From assembly GCA_003597955.1 (NCBI GenBank), contig QZJU01000016.1, forward strand, positions 1 to 49,298: a stretch of 49,298 nucleotides of DNA. Direction: 5' to 3'. Source of the DNA: Candidatus Parcubacteria bacterium (GTDB lineage: Bacteria; Patescibacteriota; Patescibacteriia; PEXW01). The translations under genes and the position numbers were made by a program. The notes beneath the pieces were generated by a model. That model saw only the letters and a program-made list of their open reading frames with translations, did not search any database and had not been told where the DNA came from. Of this stretch, positions 19,347-28,260 are shown piece by piece (the stretch's first letter is position 1; each line of letters begins with the position of its first letter).

Positions 19347-20045
19347 TTATTTGCGTCTGGTTTTGATTCTTTTAAGATTTTTCTTTGCCCCGGCTCGCCT
19401 GATTTTTTTGTGTGCAATGGTTTTTTTCTTGAGCATGTCCTTCATGGGCGAGAAGCTGTGGCGGTGTTCGGGGCTGGACCCGTGTTTTAATAATAGTCGC
19501 TTATGCAGACTTGTGCCATAGCCTTTGTGCGTATCAAACTTGTACTGCGGATGAGCGTGGTGAATTTCTGAACTCATCAGCCGGTCCCTAATAACCTTTG
19601 CGATTATTGATGCCGCACCGATTGATCTTTCCAAAGCGTCACCGTTGATGATATTTACGACTGGCTTGCGGCCGTAAAAAATTTTAAAAGCGTCCACCAA
19701 GATCGCTTGGGGCTGAATATGCAGTTTTTTCACGGCCATGGTCAGCGCTTCCAAATTGGCTTTTTGGATGCCCTGCTCGTCAATTTTTTTTGCCGGCACC
19801 AGGTGCGCGGACCAAGAAATTGATTTTTTGGTAATTTCCACAAACGCCTTTTCCCGCTGGTGAGACTTCAACATCTTGCTGTCGAAGATATTTTTCGGCA
19901 GATTTTGGTGATCCAGAATCACGGCCGCGGCCACTAAAGGGCCGGCCCAGCTGCCCTTTCCCGCTTCATCCACGCCGGCAATAAGTTGGTGGCCGGCTTT
20001 TCGCAATTTTTTTTCGTGCTTGTTTAGGGGCGGCTTTTTGCGCAT
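19347..20045 (-). CDS. rnhB: ribonuclease HII
   Basis: 232 residues. Catalytic motif AGVDEAGKGSWAGPLVAAAV has Asp26 and Glu27. The third Asp is in ILVDAF, followed by NGDALERSIGAASIIAKVIRD. It removes RNA from RNA/DNA hybrids and misincorporated ribonucleotides. An unusually basic C-terminal tail (KKKTIAHKKIRRAGAKKN..) follows the core. An extended -10 (TGGTATACT, minus strand) ends 7 nt before the ATG, so its mRNA is probably leaderless. First gene of the rnhB-methyltransferase-yraN operon. Confidence 0.93.
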   Translation of the reverse strand: MRKKPPLNKHEKKLRKAGHQLIAGVDEAGKGSWAGPLVAAAVILDHQNLPKNIFDSKMLKSHQREKAFVEITKKSISWSAHLVPAKKIDEQGIQKANLEALTMAVKKLHIQPQAILVDAFKIFYGRKPVVNIINGDALERSIGAASIIAKVIRDRLMSSEIHHAHPQYKFDTHKGYGTSLHKRLLLKHGSSPEHRHSFSPMKDMLKKKTIAHKKIRRAGAKKNLKRIKTRRK

Positions 20046-20114
20046 ATAAAAGAGTATACCATTTTTTACGCAACGCCCGTTAGATTAAGGAGAGTTGTTT
20101 GGTAAAAAATCAAA

Positions 20115-20536
20115 AATTAAAAGGGCACTGAACCCTAAATAACATAGTTAATATGAGGGCGTGCCCTTTAATAGTCTAATTAGTAGACAAGGGCCGCCCG
20201 GTTCAAGACTCCTTTTTGGAAAGAAATCTTCAACCGGGCAGCGATTGCCATAAACCTAATTAAACTTTGCATTCTTCGAGATGCCATGATTTTCGAAGAA
20301 TAATTGGCTACCACTCTTGTGGTCATACCTCTCACCAAAAAGGCTTAAAGGTTGGCCTTTTAGATTCCTGGGATTTTTTTATAACCCCAAGATTTTTGTT
20401 TTCAGACAGGCTCATGGACGCCTATGACGAGCAGTAGAACAGAAGCTCTATAACGCGTTAAAACTATCGCCAGCTGCGCTACTTCTCGTGCATTTGCAAG
20501 AGTAGTTAGAAATTTAAAGAGCTTTGTAGCTTTTCT
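20115..20536 (-). ncRNA. structured non-coding RNA A (about 420 nt), family not identified
   Basis: Minus strand, bounded by a consensus promoter (20543-20571) and a terminator stem (GTGCCC 20161-20166 with GGGCAC 20123-20128, then TTTTAATTTTT). No convincing reading frame. Many self-complementary helices occur: GCCCGGTT with AACCGGGC (about 20190-20235), ATTCTTCGA with TCGAAGAAT, ACCAC with GTGGT, and AAAAGGC with GCCTTTT whose CCAA loop can pair with the UUGG just after it (an H-type pseudoknot). Serial pseudoknots recall tmRNA, but no tRNA-like ends or CCA are visible, and no RNase P consensus is seen. Confidence 0.7.
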
Positions 20537-20542
20537 AGGCAT

Positions 20543-20571
20543 AGTATATCACGGGTTTGACCCCCTGTCAA
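20543..20571 (-). promoter_or_regulatory. promoter of ncRNA A
   Basis: TTGACA (plus 20566-20571), exactly 17 nt, TATACT (plus 20543-20548), read on the minus strand. The -35 overlaps the stop codon of the upstream kinase-like gene. The spacer contains GGGGGTCAAAC, so TTGAC and GTCAA face each other, perhaps a remnant of the palindromic element. Confidence 0.85.
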
Positions 20572-21164
20572 CTATTTGTTTTGGCTAGTTTTGCGGATTT
20601 CTTAAGTTTTCGCCTTTGCCAAACCTGAAAAGCCGATTTTACCCGGCTAACCACCTGGGGTATCGGAATATGGGTGGTATCAAGAACATAATCGTAATTA
20701 CTTGGTTTGAAAATGTTTACCCGGTAAAGTTTTTTATACCGTCGCGTATCCGAAGCAATCCTTTTTTTCATGCTGGAAATTATTTCCGCAATCGAACTTA
20801 GGTTCCTGCCCTCGTTTCGGTTTTCGTGCAAACTTTGCTTGATGCGCCTGGCGCCTTCGGGGAAAGATACATCAAAAAAAATTTTGAAACTTTCAGGCAG
20901 AAAATGAAAAGCCATTCGGCCGCTGATAACCAAATTTTTTTTGGCACGAGCGGTCTTGATTAACAAATGGTCAAAATATTTATCCCCGAATTTAGGATTT
21001 TTCTCCGACCATTTATTGAATTCAGCCAAGGTTAGGCCTTTTTTCTTGGCCACCCGTCTTCTTAAGCTGCCGATATCCAAGGTTGAGTAGCGTAAAATTT
21101 TGGCCAAGCGTTTAGCGATTGTTGATTTGCCTGAACCCGGCATGCCGTTAATGGTTATAATCAT
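20568..21164 (-). CDS. cytidylate kinase-like P-loop kinase
   Basis: 198 residues. Walker A GMPGSGKST is at residues 7-15. A LDIGSLRR segment follows in the nucleotide-binding region. NLVISGRMAFHFLPESFKIFFDVSFPEGARRI then matches the cytidylate-kinase-like (archaeal type) pattern of a conserved acid and the lid arginines. It probably phosphorylates CMP or dCMP, though a different NMP is possible. The C-terminus is a Lys-rich tail. Its stop codon overlaps the promoter of ncRNA A. The 246 nt upstream, to the pnp stop, hold only the pnp terminator and no gene I trust. Confidence 0.75.
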   Translation of the reverse strand: MIITINGMPGSGKSTIAKRLAKILRYSTLDIGSLRRRVAKKKGLTLAEFNKWSEKNPKFGDKYFDHLLIKTARAKKNLVISGRMAFHFLPESFKIFFDVSFPEGARRIKQSLHENRNEGRNLSSIAEIISSMKKRIASDTRRYKKLYRVNIFKPSNYDYVLDTTHIPIPQVVSRVKSAFQVWQRRKLKKSAKLAKTNS

Positions 21165-26505: not shown

Positions 26506-26611
26506 AAGCATCCCTTTCTATTTTAAATTTAGCAGTTTTTAGTTTTATAAGAAATCTTTTGCAAATATTGGCGAGGTCCACAAAAGATTGGCCAGAACTT
26601 TTATTGTGTCG

Positions 26612-26617
26612 TATAAT
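26612..26617 (+). promoter_or_regulatory. -10 box of a leaderless promoter (xer)
   Basis: TATAAT at 26612-26617 ends 7 nt before the ATG at 26625, so transcription should start at or within a base or two of the start codon. A weak -35 (TTGGCC) lies 18 nt upstream. Confidence 0.6.
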
Positions 26618-26624
26618 GTCTCCG

Positions 26625-27566
26625 ATGCCTAATTCTCTTACCAAATTTTTAAATGATTTCCTGGCTTATTTGGAGATTGAAAAAAATGTCTCACCCTTGA
26701 CCGTGAAGAATTACGACTTTTACCTCAAGCGTTTTATTGCCTGGGGGAAATTAAAATCACCAAACGAAATTACGGCGGAAAAGGTCAGGCAATATCGGTT
26801 GTTTTTAAATCGGCTGGTAAACAAACAAAAAGAAGCCTTGAAAGCTTCCACCCGGAATTACCACTTAATTGCTTTGCGAGCTTTTTTAAAATATCTGGCT
26901 AAGCGGGATGTGAGCGCCCTGGCGCCGGAAAAAGTGGAGCTGGCCAAGCAGGCCGAAAGGCAGGTAAATTTTTTGGACGGTGCGGATTTGGAAAGGTTTT
27001 TGGAAGCGCCCCTGAAAACCCAGGAACCGGGCTTGGTTAAAATGCGGGATAAGGCGATTTTGGAAATGCTTTTTTCTACCGGCTTGCGGGTTTCCGAACT
27101 GGCGAATTTAAAAAAAGAAAATGTGAACCTACAAAAGGAGGAATTCACCGCCCGCGGCAAGGGCGGAAAACTGCGGGTCGTTTTTCTTTCGCAGGCCGCC
27201 CGGCGCTGGCTGGGTGAATATCTGGAAAATCGTTCAGATCAGGAGCCTTGGCTTTTTTTAAGACATGATCGGGCAGTAAAAAAATCGGCAGAAAATCTTA
27301 AGCCGCTTACGCCGCGCTCGGTTCAGAGGCTGGTGCAATTTTACGCCAAAGCCGCGGGCATAACCAAAAGGGTCACCCCGCACACCCTAAGGCATTCTTA
27401 CGCCACAGATCTGCTTATGAACGGGGCGGACATTCGTTCGGTCCAATCCATGCTGGGCCACGCATCCATCACCACCACGCAGATTTACACCCATGTCACC
27501 AATCAGCAATTGCGGGAAGTTTACAAAGCCTTTCACGCCCGCCGGAGAAAAAACAAAGAGGATTGA
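26625..27566 (+). CDS. xer: tyrosine recombinase, XerC/XerD family
   Basis: 313 residues from ATG 26625; earlier in-frame starts lie upstream of or inside the -10 box. The N-terminal SAM-like core-binding domain (about 5-90) is followed by the catalytic domain with Arg in STGLRVSELANLK, HTLRHSYATDLL (His and Arg), LGHASITTT (His) and the nucleophile Tyr in QIYTHV. In CPR genomes a single Xer usually resolves chromosome dimers. It stands just upstream of a rearranged tRNA island, so it could also act on tRNA-located sites, though no att site was identified. Confidence 0.93.
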   Translation: MPNSLTKFLNDFLAYLEIEKNVSPLTVKNYDFYLKRFIAWGKLKSPNEITAEKVRQYRLFLNRLVNKQKEALKASTRNYHLIALRAFLKYLAKRDVSALAPEKVELAKQAERQVNFLDGADLERFLEAPLKTQEPGLVKMRDKAILEMLFSTGLRVSELANLKKENVNLQKEEFTARGKGGKLRVVFLSQAARRWLGEYLENRSDQEPWLFLRHDRAVKKSAENLKPLTPRSVQRLVQFYAKAAGITKRVTPHTLRHSYATDLLMNGADIRSVQSMLGHASITTTQIYTHVTNQQLREVYKAFHARRRKNKED

Positions 27567-28135: not shown

Positions 28136-28193
28136 TCCCGATGTTCGCAAAGCGAAATCGGGATCCCGACATCACAGAAAGCGATCGTCGGGA
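28136..28193. repeat. tandem pair of TCCCGA palindromes
   Basis: Hairpin 1: TCCCGAT (28136-28142) with ATCGGGA (28157-28163) and an inner TTCGC/GCGAA. Hairpin 2: TCCCGAC (28164-28170) with GTCGGGA (28187-28193). They begin at the base after the GIY-YIG stop and end exactly where a tRNA-Val copy begins without its 5' acceptor strand, so they probably replaced it. Confidence 0.75.
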
Positions 28194-28260
28194 CTCAGCT
28201 GGTTAGAGCGTCTCGTTTACACCGAGAAGGTCGGGGGTTCAAGTCCCTCAGCATCCACCA
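28194..28260 (+). pseudogene. 5'-truncated tRNA-Val(UAC)
   Basis: From CTCAGCTGG onward the sequence is a good tRNA-Val: anticodon arm TCTCG-TTTACAC-CGAGA, T-arm GGGGG-TTCAAGT-CCCTC and the 3' acceptor strand GCATCC with ACCA. The 5' acceptor strand (expected GGATGC..) is missing and replaced by the palindromic repeat pair. It cannot form an acceptor stem and is likely inactive. Confidence 0.8.

Follow-up and report, generated by a model that had tools for sequence, protein, structure and literature searches.

The window, by which we mean the whole 49,298-nucleotide stretch of DNA analysed here, contains an interval between a cytidylate kinase-like (cmk-like) gene and the ribonuclease HII gene rnhB (positions 20046-20567) in which no gene was found, in agreement with the sequence-only reading of this DNA. 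That reading had also reported a consensus promoter, TTGACA-17-TATACT, and a strong terminator, and both are present. The promoter (20571-20543, minus strand) is of the sigma-70 type and carries 11 of the 12 consensus bases and an extended TG, and a terminator stem followed by a U-rich tail closes the RNA unit (Table 1). We read the locus as a free-standing gene for an RNA, equipped with a promoter and a terminator of its own.

The dense complementary helices noted earlier are borne out by folding: the minus-strand RNA has a folding energy of -155.4 kcal/mol compared with -106.6 +/- 6.1 kcal/mol in dinucleotide shuffles (z = -8.0), whereas the plus strand, folded likewise, reaches a z of only -3.1. 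The sense strand is also more structured than the antisense strand in all eight homologues tested. Because the promoter, the terminator and the stronger fold all lie on the minus strand, we assigned the RNA to that strand, from about 20537 to about 20104.

Table 1. Predicted features of the RNA gene and its neighbours (window coordinates)
Feature	Position	Strand	Basis or remark
Upstream neighbour, cmk-like protein	20568..21164	minus	Pfam PF13189 / PF02224
-35 hexamer TTGACA	20566..20571	minus	conserved in 4/4 Kerfeldbacteria
-10 hexamer TATACT	20543..20548	minus	sequence, Kerfeldbacteria alignment, homologue promoters
Whole predicted RNA	20104..20537	minus	promoter and terminator positions, fold z -8.0, homologues
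RNA 5' end	~20536	minus	7 nt past the -10 hexamer
RNA 3' end		minus	within the U-tract
Candidate boxA-like antitermination element AAGCTCTTTAA	20514..20524	minus	GCTCTTT invariant in the Kerfeldbacteria family
P0 hairpin, upstream of P1	20428..20488	minus	3' strand overlaps the P1 5' strand in the Kerfeldbacteria lineage
P1, 5' strand CUACUGCUC	20429..20437	minus	covariation, 53 distinct sequences
P2 hairpin AGGCGU...GAGCCU, after conserved CGUCAUAG	20408..20423	minus	covariation
A-rich single-stranded linker GAAAACAAAAA	20393..20403	minus	homologue consensus about AAAACAAAAAYAAAA
Extra hairpin inside the linker	20368..20392	minus	eight-sequence alignment; among the eight aligned, Kerfeldbacteria only
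P3 hairpin GGY...RCC	20321..20357	minus	covariation
P1, 3' strand GAGUGGUAG	20308..20316	minus	covariation
P4 hairpin	20270..20302	minus	family fold; equivalent stem in Doudnabacteria
P5, long interrupted hairpin	20173..20266	minus	many double-sided changes in four sequences
Terminator, AAAGGGCAC...GUGCCCUUU stem (20169-20119) with nested inner CCCU/AGGG hairpin, then U-rich tail	20104..20169	minus	
Downstream neighbour, ribonuclease HII (rnhB)	19347..20045	minus	Pfam PF01351

The predicted architecture starts with P0, continues with P1, which encloses P2, the A-rich linker and P3, and ends with P4 and P5. The RNA is about 430 nt long in the window and reaches about 550 nt in Doudnabacteria, where the counterpart of P5 is a 39-pair stem; the consensus covering the P1 3' strand with its flank reads approximately ASAAGAA.GGUAGAGAA. 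The H-type pseudoknot that had been proposed for the locus is not supported, given that the complements at the 3' end, GGGCAC/GUGCCC and CCCU/AGGG, are nested, and that relatives preserve a simple hairpin in the P3 region.

Homologues were identified at several levels of divergence. BLASTN recovered one, with 70-75% identity, in each of the three sampled genomes of the same family (Candidatus Kerfeldbacteria, which we take to belong to GTDB class ABY1); their promoter is conserved, and they lie between a cmk-like gene and rnhB or, where a contig ends, beside cmk. Beyond this family, BLASTN yielded only short, chance-like matches. A search with a covariance model of the 5' domain then brought up four remote homologues, which belong to families f30 and f54. 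The core model R2 matched 40 of the 380 genomes of the window's class and 28 of the 379 of the phylum, and the rebuilt model R3 matched 43 of the 379 genomes of the phylum; these fractions are lower bounds because 8-9 candidates per genome were scored under strict filters. With the exception of one weak genome, the R2 and R3 surveys gave one match per genome. At E <= 1e-4, the matches are spread over at least 22 families, 16 of them in the window's class and 6 in others. Scored with R3, the window reaches 89 bits, compared with 25 bits for the next-best match in a 200-kb control set.

A pattern scan of GTDB genomes gave matches in Kerfeldbacteria, Doudnabacteria and other Patescibacteria. Pattern matches outside Patescibacteria (in Bacteroidota and others) were rejected, as they resemble protein-coding sequence and score at most 29 bits, which is noise level. 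By covariance model, the homologues extend beyond a single class of Patescibacteria and include those of Doudnabacteria. Detection in about 11% of the sampled genomes reflects either a patchy distribution or homologues that are often too diverged for the model. In the five families with a class-survey hit and two or more members in the BLASTN sample (f1, f11, f22, f30 and f42), all 13 of the 13 members were positive, which is the pattern predicted by vertical inheritance.

These observations bear on the idea that the locus is a short mRNA or a mobile, phage-borne large RNA of the GOLLD or ROOL kind, as opposed to a chromosomal housekeeping RNA. Some large ornate RNAs are indeed linked to phages, and short open reading frames exist here by chance, up to 58 amino acids among eight homologues and 52 in the window. 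However, none of these frames is conserved among the eight, where the reading frames differ from one homologue to the next; the chromosomal gene order is conserved across families; and the searches of phages and plasmids gave no match and that of IMG/VR no pattern match. We consider either version of this idea very improbable.

The comparative folding of homologous intergenic regions that had been suggested as a check yielded covariation beyond shuffled and slid controls. For the four full-length Kerfeldbacteria sequences, RNAalifold predicted 110 pairs, 29 of them with compensatory changes, and when eight sequences were aligned without structure, a common core emerged in which 12 of the 29 predicted pairs show double-sided changes. 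When 53 distinct core sequences were placed on R2, standard pairs made up 89.7% of the cells, and 24 of the 29 pairs change on both sides; the 292 double-change cells compare with 101 after shuffling (none of 500 shuffles as high), and controls with slid partners were 35-49% paired. Because the R2 alignment is fitted to the structure, a separate test was performed on Doudnabacteria sequences aligned with MAFFT. In ten full-length sequences, RNAalifold gave 96 pairs, of which 41 have double-sided changes, compared to 17.5 for shuffled alignments (none of the 500 as high) and 11-19 for slid ones, and the alignment recovered P0, P3, P4 and one long hairpin. In the same alignment, columns 156-163 are predicted to pair with columns 275-282 through a nearly invariant GCUGUUCU/AGAACAGU match that joins the P2 arm to the 3' strand of P1. 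This predicted pairing in place of P1 and P2 is by itself neutral on those helices, whose support comes from the comparison across families.

Two partners are available to the 5' strand of P1, one upstream, which extends P0, and one downstream (window 20428-20488 versus 20308-20316, minus strand). The extension of P0 into this strand is possible in families f1, f30, f22, f42 and f139 and absent in f11 and f113. Where it occurs, the two pairings therefore compete, and this competition, found in several but not all families, could amount to a folding switch or to strand exchange. A universal switch between P0 and P1 was considered, as the overlap is raised on average, yet it was not adopted because the overlap is lacking in several families.

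The promoters, the boxA-like element and the gene order are features outside the search model. Within 230 nt upstream, 50 of 51 homologues have a promoter matching at least 10 of the 12 consensus positions (3.8 expected), and in 41 of these 51 homologues the match extends to at least 11 positions (0.4 expected). After the promoter, 14 of 45 leaders match the boxA-like pattern G..C.TTRAMAA at all nine informative positions (0.13 expected) and 25 of 45 match at eight or more (2.6 expected); the element is also found in the 16S leaders of several of the RNA-bearing genomes. The E. coli-type boxA consensus by itself was weakly enriched, and the general boxA consensus strongly. The window's copy matches GCTCTTTAA, at 9 of 10 positions to the E. 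coli-type consensus, and at 7 of 9 to the fuller one, which is not significant alone, so that, taken singly, this copy is suggestive only. Because it falls short of the fuller consensus, boxA use is something that we infer.

Downstream of the RNA and co-directional with it lie a DksA/TraR-like gene and lspA in families f3, f11, f30, f59, f91 and f95, and, outside the window's class, in f113, f128, f139, f153 and f172; in f22, f42 and f52 the RNA is followed by lspA. The downstream gene is rnhB in Kerfeldbacteria and cca in f54, and a cmk-like gene lies upstream of the RNA in f1, f22, f52 and f53. That the DksA-like gene and lspA lie side by side is in its own right a deeply conserved arrangement among these Patescibacteria, and at several loci the RNA sits just upstream of the pair. 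Together, the promoters, the boxA enrichment and the gene order are taken to confirm the covariance-model hits.

Gene order is also a ground for the chief rival interpretation, under which the RNA is a long cis-acting leader, similar to an attenuator or riboswitch, of the dksA-like gene and lspA, with the terminator serving as the expression platform. The position of the RNA directly upstream of these genes in most lineages fits such a leader, as in two classes most families have the three elements side by side and in one orientation, and the overlap of the P0 and P1 pairings in several lineages would provide the two competing folds. Nevertheless, we found no constant association with one regulated gene: dksA-like and lspA genes dominate, rnhB and cca also occur, and the structure persists throughout these changes of downstream gene, including the cases of lspA without dksA. 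The competing pairing is also absent in two families (f11 and f113), and a length of more than 400 nt combined with a boxA-like element is unusual for a leader. A cis-acting role is an alternative that we regard as unlikely.

Among known RNA families, no counterpart was found. The search of the locus against Rfam 15 (4227 families), another check suggested earlier, returned no match at the gathering threshold or at E <= 10, chance hits aside, and a search with the homologues tested, at E values up to 0.5-1, gave only chance matches. In particular, the locus and the homologues tested do not match the OLE, GOLLD, ROOL or raiA family models.

The suggestion that the RNA might be a divergent tmRNA did not survive. 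The genome encodes a canonical tmRNA elsewhere (contig C17, 57121-57527, 81.8 bits), and the Rfam tmRNA model has no match at the locus at E values up to 10. ARAGORN found neither a tmRNA nor a tRNA there and confirmed that a tRNA-like domain is absent, as had been stated. The GCAAAT near the 5' end is present, but the link to tmRNA drawn from it is not sustained, since the motif is not conserved even within the family; the serial pseudoknots cited as a second likeness are not conserved either, and no conserved tag frame was found at the locus, with reading frames varying among homologues.

Elsewhere in the window, at 28190-28260 on the plus strand, a segment obtains an Rfam tRNA score of 37.4 bits and is not listed by ARAGORN. 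Its 5' acceptor strand seems to be unpaired with the 3' strand GCATCCACCA, which would fit a tRNA copy that is degenerate or incomplete; an open reading frame resembling a tyrosine recombinase (26559-27566) lies nearby.

More generally, the size range and the serial helices of the RNA might suggest that one of the universal RNAs, namely tmRNA, RNase P RNA or SRP RNA, occurs here in a very divergent form. Apart from the tmRNA, the genome also contains an RNase P RNA (contig C14, 158.7 bits), and the covariance model for the latter has no match at the locus. SRP RNA (RF00169) was not detected in the window genome or in 13 other RNA-bearing genomes, nor was the large SRP RNA (RF01854) in the window genome, the only one tested for this model. 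The missing SRP RNA raised the possibility that it was hidden in this locus, which was dropped when the Ffh M domain (PF02978) proved to be missing as well, with 0 of 14 RNA-bearing genomes positive compared to 14 of 14 control genomes. Since this domain went undetected in all 14 genomes, we consider a hidden SRP RNA unlikely here, and no SRP helix-8 motif was seen in the RNA by eye. With no Rfam match in any homologue tested, a disguised universal RNA is the reading to which we give the least credence. As a separate matter, these lineages of Patescibacteria may lack an SRP pathway, given that both SRP RNA and the Ffh M domain were undetected.

A further, weaker rival is an RNA polymerase-binding regulator similar to 6S RNA, in which P5 with its internal loops would mimic an open promoter. 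The long interrupted hairpin with its covariation and the frequent linkage to a DksA-like gene are consistent with such a role. Conversely, the 6S model of Rfam has no match at the locus (cmscan, E up to 10), the length, the multi-domain core and the A-rich linker differ from 6S RNA, and the linkage to dksA and lspA may be just ancestral gene order. We therefore view this possibility as distinctly improbable.

The explanation that we favour, and consider likely, is that the locus encodes a single-copy, vertically inherited, strongly transcribed and trans-acting structured RNA that scaffolds a ribonucleoprotein. Under this model, RNA polymerase would transcribe the gene strongly and constitutively, and NusB/S10 bound at boxA, by analogy with rRNA operons, would shield the long untranslated transcript from premature termination. 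The folded RNA would then serve a ribonucleoprotein in trans, either as its scaffold or as its catalyst. Action in trans is suggested by the retention of the structure where the downstream gene has changed, among rnhB, cca, lspA and dksA-like genes. The core formed by P1, P2, the linker and P3, with the conserved unpaired CGUCAUAG, CAAAAACAAAAA and ASAAGAA, is the part that probably binds protein or is active, and P0, P4 and P5 would be more variable peripheral arms. This is probably the RNA component of a ribonucleoprotein machine that nobody has described yet. The RNA would also represent a new class outside Rfam, where new refers to the RNA class and not to the biochemical role. The earlier proposal of an abundant stable RNA of a new class stands insofar as a conserved, promoter-driven structured RNA outside Rfam is concerned, while its abundance is read from the promoter only.

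Patescibacteria (CPR) account for a major, mostly uncultured share of bacterial diversity and have genomes of about 1 Mb. In a genome of this size, a non-coding gene of 430 nt whose promoter is near-perfect is unlikely to be retained if it is unimportant. More tentatively, and with rather less than even confidence, we propose a Patescibacteria-specific housekeeping ribonucleoprotein whose RNA dates back at least to the ancestor of Kerfeldbacteria and Doudnabacteria and whose function would be new to cultured bacteria, possibly replacing something lost, because the genomes tested have no detectable SRP RNA and Ffh M domain. An RNA class found in over 20 families and beyond a single bacterial class, and missing from both Rfam and the open-licence papers searched, would be among the larger undescribed bacterial RNA families, and its conserved core offers immediate handles in the form of a covariance model, pull-down and probing. 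RNase P RNA is a documented case of an RNA gene that can diverge strongly in these bacteria (PMC8172020). In the open-licence literature, we found no description of a CPR RNA like this one or of SRP loss, and such descriptions may exist elsewhere.

Several known systems share individual features with the window RNA. Leaders of rRNA operons that bear boxA invite comparison with the window RNA, where a candidate boxA-like element likewise comes soon after a strong promoter, but the predicted window transcript is not rRNA, as it has no Rfam rRNA match. tmRNA (RF00023) is of similar length, is encoded by a single-copy chromosomal gene and consists of several helices joined by A-rich linkers; in contrast, the window RNA has no tRNA-like domain or conserved tag frame. 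RNase P RNA (RF00010) belongs to a similar size class, and both it and SRP RNA (RF00169, RF01854) are, like the window RNA, housekeeping-like and present in one copy per genome. Compared to OLE, GOLLD, ROOL and raiA, the window RNA comes from a different phylum, is by Rfam model a member of none of these families, has no phage relatives found and possesses a core with an A-rich linker that is not described for them. Nevertheless, it is these RNAs that it resembles most: they are likewise free-standing, large and highly structured, were found by comparative genomics, and have functions that are unresolved or have been studied only recently (PMC12286853, PMC12054373, PMC11706538).
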